From the NCBI GenBank assembly GCA_017537025.1, contig JAFWCB010000005.1:186001-250000 (forward strand): a stretch of 64,000 nucleotides of DNA, in the 5' to 3' direction. A model generated the notes under the pieces. The model made no database searches, was not told the DNA's origin, and worked only from the letters and a program-made list of their open reading frames with translations. This stretch comes from Sediminibacterium sp. (GTDB taxonomy: Bacteria; Bacteroidota; Bacteroidia; Chitinophagales; Chitinophagaceae). Of the stretch, positions 2,074-4,282 are shown one piece after another. How positions within the stretch are numbered: the first letter of the stretch is position 1; every line of letters begins with the position of its first letter. Both the position numbers and the translations under genes were made by a program.

Positions 2074-2847
2074 ATGAAATTGATTGATACGCACTGCCAT
2101 ATTTACTTAGAAGATTTTGATACCGACAGGGCAGAAATGCTTCAAAGAGCCATAAATACGGGCGTCGAGCGTTTTTATTTACCCGGGATTGATAGTAGCG
2201 TTATTCCTAATATGATGGCTTTAGAAGCGGCTTATCCTGATCAATGTTTTGCGATGATGGGCTTGCACCCTTGTTATGTAAAAGACAATTATGAAACCGA
2301 ATTAGCTATTGTAAAAGAGTGGTTAACCAAGCGACATTTTCCTGCTATTGGAGAAATTGGACTGGATTATTATTGGGATACTGATCATAAAAAAGAGCAA
2401 ATTTTAGCCTTTGAACAACAGATGCAGTGGGGGTTGGATTATGAGCTGCCTATTGTAATTCATACCCGTAATGCCATGGAGGAAACGATTGAATGTGTGA
2501 GGCCATTTGCTAAAAAGGGTTTGAAGGGTATTTTCCATTGTTTTAGTGGCAGTTACGAATCGGCACAACAAATTATAGATATGGGATTTTTATTGGGTAT
2601 TGGCGGCGTATTAACCTATAAAAATGCAGGCTTAGGGGCGGTGCTGGAAAAAATTGACATCAAGTATATGGTTTTGGAAACAGATGCACCTTATCTTACC
2701 CCTGTTCCTTTCAGAGGGAAGCGTAATGAACCTTCTTATCTAAGCCATATCATTCATAAATTATCCGAAGTAAAAGGTTTACCGGAAAGTGAAATAGCAT
2801 CGATAACTACGGGGAATGCATTAAAAATATTTAAAAACAACCCGTAA
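2074..2847 (+). CDS. tatD: TatD family metal-dependent deoxyribonuclease
   Basis: The ORF is open from 2026, but the family's N-terminus (MKLIDTHCHIYLEDF) starts at the ATG at 2074, giving 257 residues, the usual TatD length. Visible motifs of this TIM-barrel amidohydrolase superfamily are HCH near the start (metal ligands), AIGEIGLDYYW with the metal-bridging Glu, IVIHTRNA, IFHCFSG and LETDAPYL. It is a cytoplasmic exonuclease of the YcfH/TatD group, associated with DNA repair and turnover. The tRNA-Ser promoter begins a few bases after its stop codon. Confidence 0.92.
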   Translation: MKLIDTHCHIYLEDFDTDRAEMLQRAINTGVERFYLPGIDSSVIPNMMALEAAYPDQCFAMMGLHPCYVKDNYETELAIVKEWLTKRHFPAIGEIGLDYYWDTDHKKEQILAFEQQMQWGLDYELPIVIHTRNAMEETIECVRPFAKKGLKGIFHCFSGSYESAQQIIDMGFLLGIGGVLTYKNAGLGAVLEKIDIKYMVLETDAPYLTPVPFRGKRNEPSYLSHIIHKLSEVKGLPESEIASITTGNALKIFKNNP

Positions 2848-2852
2848 AAGCC

Positions 2853-2860
2853 TACATTTG
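2853..2860 (+). promoter_or_regulatory. Candidate -7 element of the tRNA-Ser promoter
   Basis: The octamer tacatttg fits the Bacteroidota -7 consensus TAnnTTTG and would place the transcription start near 2867, just before the first tRNA-like copy at 2871. The expected -33 TTTG is weak (only ttt near 2830). If real, this promoter transcribes two partial tRNA-derived repeats before reaching the intact tRNA at 3075. Confidence 0.45.
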
Positions 2861-2870
2861 CCGCCCTAAT

Positions 2871-3074
2871 AGAGAGGTGTCCGAGTGCCGAGACGCTGCG
2901 GTCTCGGTGCCGACCGAAGCGTCGGCAGTTGAAGTAGCTTGTAGTTCTTATTTTATAATTTATAATAAATTCAGAGAGGTGCCCGAGTGCCGAGACGCTG
3001 CGGTCTCGGTGCCGACCGAAGCGTCGGCAGTTGAAGTAGCTTGTAGTTCTTATTTTATAATTTATAATAAATTC
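2871..3074 (+). repeat. Two tandem 102-bp units, each a tRNA-Ser 5' end plus a two-hairpin module
   Basis: Unit A (2871-2972) and unit B (2973-3074) differ by one base (gtgtccg against gtgcccg). Each starts with the first 17 nt of the tRNA-Ser gene that follows at 3075. Next comes a 40-nt module of two adjacent perfect hairpins: CCGAGACGCTGCGGTCTCGG and TGCCGACCGAAGCGTCGGCA. The unit then resumes with gttgaag, which matches the tRNA D-loop, and decays into a 39-nt AT-rich tail. Thus the module sits inside the D-loop of a partial tRNA copy, and the intact tRNA occupies the position of a third unit. Confidence 0.85.
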
Positions 3075-3161
3075 AGAGAGGTGCCCGAGTGGTTGAAGGG
3101 GGTCGCCTGGAAAGCGGCTATACGGGAAACTGTATCGAGGGTTCGAATCCCTTCCTCTCTG
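3075..3161 (+). tRNA. tRNA-Ser (anticodon GGA)
   Basis: An 87-nt tRNA is seen: acceptor stem agagagg/cctctct with discriminator G at 3161, D-stem ccc/ggg around gagtggttgaa, anticodon stem gtcgc/gcggc with loop ctggaaa (anticodon GGA), a long class II variable arm (atacgg gaaa ctgtat) and T-arm with ttcgaat. The long variable arm and anticodon identify serine. The CCA end is not encoded. Partial copies of this tRNA surround it on both sides. Confidence 0.93.
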
Positions 3162-3182
3162 CAATAAAATCAATTAATCACC

Positions 3183-3260
3183 AGAGAGGGCCGAGGCGAT
3201 AAATGTCTCGGTGCCGACCATAGCGTCGGCATTCGAATCCCTTCCTCTCTGCTAAAGTTT
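3183..3260 (+). repeat. tRNA-Ser 3'-end copy with a two-hairpin module in its T-loop (copy C)
   Basis: The sequence gaggg (T-stem 5' strand) is followed by a 41-nt module: ccgag...ctcgg, then TGCCGACCATAGCGTCGGCA. It continues exactly with ttcgaatcccttcctctctg, the tRNA T-loop to 3' end, and then ctaaagttt. The module therefore lies between the T-stem and T-loop of a partial tRNA. The preceding agagagg (3183-3189) could also restore an acceptor stem with cctctct. From 3186 to 3260 the sequence is identical to copy D at 3521-3595. Confidence 0.8.
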
Positions 3261-3273
3261 ATTACTTGTACAC

Positions 3274-3519
3274 ATGTTTTACGTGTATATCCTTTATTCT
3301 TCTTCAGCCAATAGATTTTACATTGGCCAAACACAAGACCTTCAGCAAAGATTACAAAGGCACAACAATGGATACGAATCGGCTACTAAACCTTTTATTC
3401 CTTGGGAATTAAAATGTGCTATCCAAAAAAATTCTAGATCTGAGGCTATTGTACTAGAAGCTAAACTCAAAAATCTTAACAAAAACAAGCTACTTGCTTT
3501 TATTCAAAAGTATAGTTGA
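3274..3519 (+). CDS. Small GIY-YIG endonuclease domain protein
   Basis: This 81-residue protein is little more than one GIY-YIG domain. It has YVYILYSSS (residues 3-11) and FYIGQT (15-20) as the two signature strands, then R and H in QQRLQRHNNG and a Glu in the helix EAIVLEAKLK. It belongs to the single-domain UPF0213/YhbQ-like group, predicted metal-dependent nucleases. It starts 13 bp after repeat C and ends 1 bp before repeat D, so the gene is exactly framed by two 75-bp identical repeats carrying tRNA-Ser 3' ends. That placement suggests it belongs to a small mobile unit, possibly acting on the tRNA or the hairpin module; this role is inferred. Confidence 0.85.
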   Translation: MFYVYILYSSSANRFYIGQTQDLQQRLQRHNNGYESATKPFIPWELKCAIQKNSRSEAIVLEAKLKNLNKNKLLAFIQKYS

Positions 3520-3520
3520 C

Positions 3521-3595
3521 GAGGGCCGAGGCGATAAATGTCTCGGTGCCGACCATAGCGTCGGCATTCGAATCCCTTCCTCTCTGCTAAAGTTT
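3521..3595 (+). repeat. tRNA-Ser 3'-end copy with a two-hairpin module in its T-loop (copy D)
   Basis: It is a perfect 75-bp direct repeat of 3186-3260: gaggg, the two-hairpin module, the tRNA T-loop and 3' acceptor strand, and ctaaagttt. The last 9 bases include the stop codon and final codons of the deacetylase gene on the opposite strand. The ancestral order was therefore probably tRNA-Ser directly followed by that gene, with copy C made by duplication. Confidence 0.85.
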
Positions 3596-4282
3596 TTCAA
3601 AAGAATACCCTTGCTCCGTAAAATATGCCAATACTTTTGGTAAGGCATATGACATGCGCTCCCATGCCTTGGTACTATCATGAAAGACCACAATAGAGCC
3701 GTTACCGGCATGTTTTATCACATGCTGTAAGCACTTCTCCTTAGATAGCGTAATATCGAAATCACCTGCCAGTACCGTCCACATAACTATCTTAGACGGT
3801 AGATTCAAGACCGGAGAAGAAAGACCATTGACCGTAGACCGTAGACCATTTTCGGACTCCCGGACTCCCGGACTCCCGAACTTACTTTGCAACCTCCTAA
3901 TTACTGCTCGCGTAATTCTCCCATAAGGAGGCCTGAATAAATCTGATGCAATAACCTCACTGGCCTCCTGTATATTAGCGAGATAAGCAGCATCCTTCAC
4001 TTTCCAGCCATTCAGGTGATTATTTGTGTGATTACCAATGCTATGACCTTCAGCTATAATTCGTTGATAAATATCGGGGTGTTTACGTACGTTTTTACCG
4101 ATGCAAAAAAAACTAGCTTTAGCATCATATTTTTTTAATTGATCAAGTACAAAGGGAGTGGCTTCATGGTGCGGACCATCATCAAAAGTCAAATAGATTT
4201 TTTTCTCCGATGTTACCGGCATCTCCCAAATAAGAGAGCGATATAACAAACGCAGCCACCAAGGTATTTTAACCACATACAT
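3587..4282 (-). CDS. Polysaccharide deacetylase (NodB/CE4 family)
   Basis: This 231-residue enzyme of the NodB fold removes acetyl groups from N-acetylated glycans. Motif 1 is YLTFDDGP with the catalytic and metal Asp pair (about residues 30-37), motif 2 is SIGNHTNNH with the metal His residues, and motif 3 is RPPYGR. A hydrophobic N-terminus (IPWWLRLLYRSLIWEMP) may anchor it to the membrane. Between RRLQSKFG and PSKIVMW there is an unusual insertion of roughly 25 residues encoded by short tandem repeats (three gactcccg and two accgtag units, 3822-3880). It keeps the frame and probably forms a loop. The 3' end overlaps repeat D by 9 bases. Confidence 0.87.
   Translation of the reverse strand: MYVVKIPWWLRLLYRSLIWEMPVTSEKKIYLTFDDGPHHEATPFVLDQLKKYDAKASFFCIGKNVRKHPDIYQRIIAEGHSIGNHTNNHLNGWKVKDAAYLANIQEASEVIASDLFRPPYGRITRAVIRRLQSKFGSPGVRESENGLRSTVNGLSSPVLNLPSKIVMWTVLAGDFDITLSKEKCLQHVIKHAGNGSIVVFHDSTKAWERMSYALPKVLAYFTEQGYSFEKL

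Follow-up and report, generated by a model that had tools for sequence, protein, structure and literature searches.

Integrative elements that target the 3′ end of tRNA genes restore a complete tRNA and leave its 3′ end behind as a direct repeat, and Slx1, an enzyme with a minimal GIY-YIG domain, works together with Slx4. SegB, a free-standing GIY-YIG homing endonuclease of T-even phages, is encoded beside tRNA genes of many isotypes; it cuts inside tRNA genes and drives the recombination-dependent tandem amplification of tRNA segments (excerpted text of PMC13096335). In the same text, the SegB motif RAWTSGAAC was found at 23 of 83 cut sites and was helpful but not required. Here, an array at positions 2871–3595 of a 64,000-nt window of Sediminibacterium sp. 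DNA (GCA_017537025.1, JAFWCB010000005.1, positions 186,001–250,000) was compared with these systems; the window is this whole stretch, and coordinates refer to it unless a locus is named. The array combines broken copies of a serine tRNA gene, two-hairpin modules, and a gene for a minimal GIY-YIG nuclease. We consider it probable that it is a compact selfish element of tRNA genes, amplified in tandem through the action of its nuclease at the hairpin-marked site. The initial annotation, made from the sequence alone, had proposed a tRNA-targeting repeat with its own nuclease. That proposal was partly supported and was enlarged to a widespread family of tRNA-gene elements with hairpin-marked broken tRNAs and a minimal GIY-YIG nuclease.

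The array begins with two 102-nt units (2871–2972 and 2973–3074; 99% identical to each other), followed by the intact tRNA-Ser(GGA), a 75-nt unit (3186–3260), the GIY-YIG gene, and a second 75-nt unit (3521–3595) identical to the first (Table 1). Each 102-nt unit consists of tRNA-Ser positions 1–17, a 40-nt module, the D-loop sequence GTTGAAG, and an A+T-rich spacer; the tRNA is interrupted after position 17. Each 75-nt unit consists of GAGGG, which is the 5′ half of the T-stem, a 41-nt module, and then TTCGAATCCCTTCCTCTCTGC, which runs from T54 to the 3′ end, and the module lies exactly at the border of T-stem and T-loop. Four partial copies around an intact gene, a nuclease gene inside the array, and modules in the D-loop and between T-stem and T-loop had all been described in the initial annotation, and each was confirmed. 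The modules had been said to follow one plan and to differ in their loops, which is correct; beyond this, one stem base differs as well, with a G-T pair as the result (GAC versus GGC). In the genome of the window, the pattern GGTGCCGAC-N(3-14)-GTCGGCA occurred at only these four places, and the tRNA-Ser(GGA) was the only tRNA detected with ARAGORN in the 64 kb.

Table 1. Features of the tRNA-Ser array in window coordinates. Bits are covariance model scores; pLDDT, predicted local distance difference test.
Feature	Position	Strand	Support
tRNA-Ser 5′ piece, positions 1–17, copy A; one mismatch to the intact gene	2871..2887	+	
Two-hairpin module A, in D-loop	2888..2927	+	55.8 bits
D-loop remainder GTTGAAG and spacer to next tRNA 5′ end	2928..2972	+	
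tRNA-Ser 5′ piece, copy B	2973..2989	+	
Two-hairpin module B, in D-loop	2990..3029	+	55.8 bits
D-loop remainder and spacer, copy B	3030..3074	+	
Intact tRNA-Ser(GGA); T-arm GTTCGAATC retained at 3141–3149	3075..3162	+	ARAGORN
T-stem 5′ half GAGGG before module C	3186..3190	+	
Two-hairpin module C, T-stem/T-loop border	3191..3231	+	42.7 bits
tRNA-Ser 3′ piece, positions 68–88, copy C	3232..3252	+	
81-aa GIY-YIG nuclease gene	3274..3519	+	PF01541; AlphaFold2 pLDDT 97.2
T-stem 5′ half before module D	3521..3525	+	
Two-hairpin module D, T-stem/T-loop border	3526..3566	+	42.7 bits
tRNA-Ser 3′ piece, positions 68–88, copy D	3567..3587	+	

The window protein was searched in 98 genomes of the family, and relatives were found in 56. 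The best 60 of about 100 family clusters and the best 80 of 280 relatives from the genome collection were examined; after three loci were dropped as duplicates, the pooled set held 138 de-duplicated loci with 184 GIY open reading frames (ORFs). A tRNA lay within 600 nt on the same strand, the only strand examined in this count, at 117 of the 138 loci, with a median gap of 45 nt; it was upstream of the gene at 99 of them and downstream at 18. When either strand was allowed, 56 of 83 and 69 of 105 ORFs had a tRNA within 300 nt, all on the same strand. In a phylum-wide sample, 23 of 28 loci had a tRNA within 600 nt, again always on the same strand, and one of the tRNA-less loci was already in the first set. 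With one tRNA per 64 kb, as in the window, we estimate that about one percent of loci would lie this close to a tRNA by chance.

The tRNAs at nuclease loci covered seventeen amino-acid types. Named loci were mostly from Bacteroidota, with some from Ignavibacteria, Chlorobiota, Neomarinimicrobiota, Calditrichia, Acidobacteria, and Verrucomicrobia, and further ones from a candidate-phylum genome and a Rickettsiales bin; mis-binning does occur among these names, as loci L135 and L138 are one contig under two organism names. Relatives of the nuclease were present in 226 of 345 Bacteroidota genomes at E 1e-6, with the tRNA linkage checked at the 28 loci mentioned above. At locus L076, two tRNA-like genes beside GIY genes (2439–2512 and 3421–3495) had the stop-reading anticodon TTA according to ARAGORN and are possibly altered copies of a lysine tRNA.

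At 100 of the 117 loci, partial copies of 14 nt or more were present for the tRNA next to the gene, compared to a mean of 12.2 of 117 for tRNAs of other isotypes and none of 117 when the opposite strand was searched. Each piece was counted separately in the analysis of break points, tandem copies too; the break points were not random and clustered at T54 and where the anticodon arm begins and ends. Of the 3′ pieces, 23 began at T54, which is 20 nt from the tRNA end, and 37 began 30–32 nt from that end, where the anticodon arm of ordinary tRNAs ends. The 5′ pieces stopped at position 27, where the anticodon arm begins, in 23 cases; smaller groups fell in the D-arm and elsewhere. In Chryseobacterium and Kaistella (L131 and L149), 3′ pieces of tRNA-Ala (positions 44–75) formed strings, three pieces in one genome and five in the other, spaced by 143–148 nt where adjacent.

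In the nearest relatives of the window locus, the break between positions 53 and 54 was found in tRNAs for Ser, His, Lys, Gly, Leu, Arg, Glu, Val, and Asp. Each of the 21 positions from T54 matched the intact tRNA in 15–16 of 16 units. Past the tRNA end, near-identity continued over the 50 nt compared in 6 of 15 units (L097, L101, L103, L109, L115, and L121) and faded at the end or within a few bases in 9 of 15; L098 ends there. On the 5′ side, positions 53–50 matched in 16 of 16 units and position 49 in 14 of 16, followed by fading, and four of the 16 units kept a longer match. From the limits on both sides, the minimum retained is the T-arm holding the module plus the 3′ strand to the tRNA end.

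Both module types folded into two hairpins of 7–8 bp. In DNA folding, the two types gave z-scores of −2.9 and −4.0, with 0 of 200 shuffles as good, and the whole unit at 3186–3252 gave −2.6, with 1 of 200 as good. In the predicted fold of this unit, four T-stem pairs enclose both hairpins and the T-loop, forming a branched structure. Among 24 break sites displayed, 15 carried a clear two-hairpin module before T54 and two (L099 and L110) carried it after TTCGAA; the remaining seven (L113, L123, L128 twice, L129, L148, and L160) held other or degraded inserts. Hairpin statistics were based on the clear modules with L039, L114, and the window, in sets of 18 modules, 12 modules without the window, 17 units, and 16 units; the 12-module set omits L103 and three others of the 18-module set.

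In the 12 modules from other genomes, 99.4% of cells were paired and 9 of 14 pairs had changed on both sides; none of 500 shuffles scored as high on four of five covariation measures, and 13 of 500 did so on the fifth. A set of 18 modules, which includes two of the window's, had 249 of 252 cells paired. Loci L102 and L104 had GAG..CTC in both hairpins, in place of the GAC..GTC of nearly all others, and the two hairpins therefore change together. The five bases before the module paired with the 3′ half of the T-stem at 83 of 85 positions in 17 units. The pattern of these changes indicates that the hairpins are under selection.

The phenomenon extends beyond the two-hairpin module: in another branch of the nuclease family, a hairpin replaces the anticodon arm itself. 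In this anticodon branch, 42 loci held 65 inserts. A stem of six pairs or more was present in 56 of these and absent from 9; 55 were more stable than the native arm and 10 were not; and a few rows represent one copy parsed in different ways. The stem CCCGA..TCGGG was counted manually in 29 of the 65 inserts, in tRNAs for Leu, Lys, Arg, Ala, Asn, Pro, and Met, and CCCG..CGGG in about 40. One stem common to several isotypes is not expected of mere decay.

The nuclease of the window is a single GIY-YIG domain of 81 aa (PF01541, E 4.5e-15) in the predicted model (Table 1). Its active site is intact: Y5, Y16, G18, and H30 were conserved in 168 of 168 sequences, and R26 and E62 in 166 of 168. The tandem nuclease genes are under purifying selection, with a pooled ratio of nonsynonymous to synonymous differences (pN/pS) of 0.16 across 18 neighbouring non-identical pairs; five more pairs were identical, and pairs of unequal length or more than 35% different were skipped. 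Relatively many amino-acid changes were present in tandem pairs of L062 (first pair), L156, and L125.

The nearest solved relative by sequence was UPF0213 (1zg2, E 8.3e-11), with much weaker matches to Slx1 (E 0.015) and I-TevI. Fold comparison gave the order UPF0213 1zg2 (E 5.1e-4), Slx1 (about 5e-3), and then I-TevI. The NCBIfam model for group I intron endonucleases matched weakly (E 6.4e-5; 23.1 bits against a cut-off of 56.05). Slx1-Slx4 processes branched DNA (excerpted record of 6seh), which would fit the branched module as a substrate. When the window protein was compared by tblastn with 50,697 phage records and 72,556 plasmid records, nothing matched at E 1e-3, and viral contigs held only five weak partial relatives; on these records, a phage or plasmid origin was rejected. 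A second, weak GIY-YIG match was present in the genome of the window (G000:C6:309848–309964, E 4.6e-6).

Since tandem repeats are prone to assembly error, an assembly artefact or the ordinary decay of duplicated tRNA genes was also considered for the array. Both are largely contradicted, and the artefact was rejected: the same plan recurs in many independent assemblies and isotypes, with the one-contig genomes G055 and G085 included (arrays L062 and L063), which argues against an artefact peculiar to the assembly of the window. Covarying hairpins and conserved nuclease active sites speak against both as well.

A covariance model trained without any copy from the window was run on 298 genomes of the order. 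It recovered all four modules of the window (Table 1) and gave matches in 21 genomes, the window's genome counted. The four window modules, three training modules or their tandem twin, and 11 opposite-strand duplicates were set aside, and 50 new sites in 19 genomes were examined; some of these are tandem copies of each other, and some stretches stop at contig ends. tRNA sequence directly abutted 36 of the 50 sites, compared to 3 of 100 random positions. An intact tRNA lay within 1 kb of 28 sites, and a tRNA or a GIY gene within 1 kb of 34. Module positions included the T-loop before T54, the T-loop after TTCGA(A/G), and the D-arm, with some sites in no recognised context. A covariance-model search of this kind had been suggested with the initial annotation, and its expectation held for clustering at tRNA genes; for a nearby GIY gene, found within 1 kb of only 13 of the 50 sites, it held in part. 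The link of the repeat to tRNA genes and to a GIY-YIG family stands, and many copies lack a GIY gene nearby. The natural reading of modules without a neighbouring GIY gene is that they would be non-autonomous copies.

The 37 sites with no GIY gene within 1 kb, in the stretch examined, also fit a different reading, in which the module is a repeat like the repetitive extragenic palindromes (REPs) and bacterial interspersed mosaic elements (BIMEs), spread by another enzyme, and the tRNA-linked GIY-YIG gene, independent of it, merely shares the site. The modules in 5S rRNA pieces described below point in the same direction, and CGTC-tagged REPs have been reported without a dedicated transposase (excerpted text of PMC3733652). 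We regard this reading as unlikely: the break type tracks the nuclease tree; in the nearest relatives of the window, the GIY gene is closely followed by the module; and the anticodon branch, which also has GIY genes, is marked by single hairpins whose stem is related.

The nuclease tree had 136 rows and 69 columns, and the break type was known for 80 rows. Break type followed the tree with 14 changes, compared to a mean of 32.9 after shuffling, and none of 200 shuffles was as low. In the T-loop clade, isotype changed 21 times among 36 rows (shuffled 26.2); in the other clade, it changed 22 times among 79 rows (shuffled 51.6). Isotype switching is expected to be easier for a nuclease tied to a universal sequence than for one that depends on the anticodon arm, and the data agree with this.

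Genes for TatD and for a polysaccharide deacetylase neighbour the array of the window. At the corresponding tatD/tRNA-Ser place, 27 loci of the same genus had neither a module nor a GIY gene in the stretch compared; a few same-genus tRNA-Ser loci stop soon after the tRNA, and L182 has a 12-nt match to its tRNA. The nearest relative, L178 (genome G128), has a TatD 90% identical to that of the window, a different 5′ tRNA copy, and no GIY gene in the locus. From this absence, the cassette of the window was either gained recently or lost from many relatives, and a recent gain would be the simpler reading. In the 5′ tRNA copy of L178, which lies downstream of tatD, the D-arm and the anticodon arm are both hairpins of the TCCCG..CGGGA type, as judged by eye. 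A similar 5′ copy was seen in L192, again with no GIY gene in the locus. Downstream of the same tRNA-Ser, L178 carries a phage-type integrase gene at 2719–3642 (Phage_int_SAM_5, E 1.3e-17; Arm-DNA-bind_5).

Copy number also differed among relatives. A tRNA-Pro array in four Cyclobacterium species held 4, 1, 3, and 2 GIY matches, its surroundings being partly alignable, and the second species had one further match about 2.2 kb downstream. In L063 and L039, about 32% synonymous-site difference was present in three of four neighbouring nuclease pairs, and tRNA pieces of 25 nt and 21 nt were identical in all units and in the intact gene. The pieces thus stayed identical despite diverged genes and are actively kept or converted. 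Units with two to four tRNA mismatches were found in L069, L088, and L082.

Such identity to the resident tRNA, seen in several arrays, would also be expected if the array served the host. The nuclease and the hairpin-bearing tRNA pieces might protect tRNA genes or the tRNA supply, for example against tRNA-attacking factors of phages, or, in a variant, against mobile elements that integrate at tRNA 3′ ends and likewise leave partial 3′ copies. Purifying selection on the nuclease, its lack of relatives in phage records, and the integrase gene just downstream of the same tRNA in L178 are consistent with this. Patchy, species-specific presence, tandem arrays of variable copy number, and isotype switching look more like properties of an element than of a conserved defence, and a benefit to the host seems improbable as the explanation.

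For the selfish tRNA-gene element that we favour, the following mechanism is proposed. One unit would consist of a piece of the resident tRNA and a hairpin module at a fixed break point, and the autonomous form would add the GIY-YIG gene. The nuclease, which resembles the structure-selective type of Slx1 and UPF0213 and has no separate DNA-binding domain, would act at the hairpin-marked tRNA site, where its substrate may be the branched structure of T-stem, two hairpins, and T-loop. The break would then be repaired by recombination between tRNA pieces and intact tRNA genes. Such repair would duplicate the unit in tandem and, at times, seed it into another tRNA gene. The T-loop branch would change isotype easily because the T-loop sequence is nearly universal, and the branch that replaces the anticodon arm would be more isotype-bound. 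The host need not be harmed, since an intact tRNA is usually kept alongside (117 of 138 loci).

Several observations weigh against this reading. No same-strand tRNA was found within 600 nt at 21 of the 138 loci, and 14 of the 50 new module sites fell below the tRNA threshold; the few new sites with a GIY gene nearby count in the same way. In L243, modules stand right behind 5S rRNA pieces that end near position 105 (270–316, 449–495, and 628–686), beside an intact 5S gene at 32–144. The nuclease tree, with its 69 columns, is poorly resolved, and the isotype contrast between the clades may come partly from denser sampling of the anticodon branch. The searches of phage and plasmid records, which gave no match, and of viral contigs, which gave the five weak partial relatives, point to no route between hosts. 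The intact tRNA-Ser keeps GTTCGAATC, so that a nuclease simply cutting GTTCGAATC would be self-destructive. Finally, we infer cleavage at the module, recombination as the route, selfishness, and, from species-specific presence and isotype switching, the mobility that the initial annotation had proposed for the repeat; in the genome of the window, all copies of the module pattern stand at a single locus.

A broader proposition, which we put forward as tentative, is that these loci represent an undescribed, phylum-wide class of mobile elements. Members of this class would have the tRNA gene as their niche, a hairpin pair or a hairpin in place of the anticodon arm as the cis-acting site, and a minimal Slx1-like GIY-YIG nuclease as their only protein, with branched DNA, formed from the tRNA arm and the hairpins, as the substrate that starts both tandem amplification and jumps between tRNA isotypes. 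The boldest version adds that the enzyme would also be directed by the hairpin-tRNA 3′ tail of the mRNA. The initial annotation knew of no description of such a system, and no account of tRNA-linked GIY-YIG arrays in bacterial chromosomes was found among the papers listed in searches of an open-access library, subscription journals lying mostly outside these searches.

A device acting purely at the RNA level, by analogy with the omega RNAs of TnpB and IscB, was weighed separately. Here the mRNA 3′ end, with its two hairpins and tRNA 3′ piece, would be a cofactor or guide of the nuclease, the tRNA piece serving as the guide. A module and tRNA 3′ piece directly after the GIY gene on the same strand would suit such a device, as would the covarying hairpins and the match of the 21 positions from T54 to the resident tRNA. 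We know of no RNA-guided GIY-YIG enzyme, the 5′ units of the window place the module upstream of the tRNA without a gene, and a guide directed at the tRNA would also strike the intact neighbour; this device is considered very unlikely.

If the selfish-element reading is true, many tRNA genes of Bacteroidota host a small selfish system. This would explain the strings of partial tRNAs beside tRNA genes and many of the small GIY-YIG genes in Bacteroidota, and it would provide a chromosomal counterpart of SegB-driven tRNA amplification. Furthermore, minimal GIY-YIG enzymes would gain a natural substrate; both points can be tested directly with short oligonucleotides and the protein of 81 aa.

Among the open frames of the array and its flanks, the only Pfam domains were GIY-YIG, TatD, polysaccharide deacetylase, and ARPP-1, and within the array no open frame other than GIY-YIG had a Pfam domain. 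Two such frames, at 2754–3173 (−) and 2877–3167 (+), cross the tRNA repeats and could be misannotated as genes. A lysine riboswitch match at 2966–3082, which spans repeat and tRNA, scored 20.2 bits against a gathering score of 30 and was taken as chance.

When compared with known systems, the array resembles a tRNA-targeting integrative element in the duplicated tRNA 3′ end. This assignment was rejected, as no integrase lies inside the unit of the window; moreover, these loci also have 5′ tRNA pieces, replacement of the anticodon arm, and a hairpin at the junction. No integron integrase was found among the open frames of the array, to which that search was confined. Slx1 and UPF0213 are the closest solved relatives and share the minimal GIY-YIG domain, and to our knowledge neither occurs in arrays of tRNA pieces.

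The initial annotation had compared the array in its logic to REPs and their associated tyrosine transposases (RAYTs). REPs and BIMEs are likewise short palindromic units, often dimers, and GTAG REPs have a linked transposase gene (excerpted text of PMC3733652). In the array, no transposase of the IS200/IS605 type (HUH/Y1) was present among the open frames, and REP/RAYT membership was rejected. A CGTC-tagged REP was rejected as well: its tag is terminal and unpaired in the same source, whereas GTC here lies in a stem and the module ends are paired. Module sites of the window type are, unlike REPs, largely tRNA loops, and the pattern is not dispersed in the window's genome. The REP/RAYT comparison was replaced by one with SegB.

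Both SegB and the nuclease of the window are GIY-YIG proteins tied to tRNA genes. Reversed, the SegB motif RAWTSGAAC becomes GTTCSAWTY, which on our reading of the excerpted motif would correspond to the T-arm from G53 to C61. The motif would thus lie at the T-loop, where the T-loop modules of the window sit, and the break in the window falls between its first two bases. Broken copies lose the continuity of G53 and T54, and the intact neighbour keeps it. As in a system of the SegB type, a nuclease with an intact GIY-YIG active site is located at a conserved target gene and is absent from the 27 same-genus tRNA-Ser loci over the stretch compared. The differences are that SegB is borne by phages and the window protein is a bare 81-aa domain with no match in phage records, and that units of the window type typically contain a broken piece of tRNA together with a hairpin. 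The terms "hairpin", "T-loop", and "bacterial chromosome" were searched for in the excerpted SegB text (PMC13096335), with no match. Membership in the SegB kind is not claimed; by analogy, the window element may work like SegB, which is the closest parallel found.

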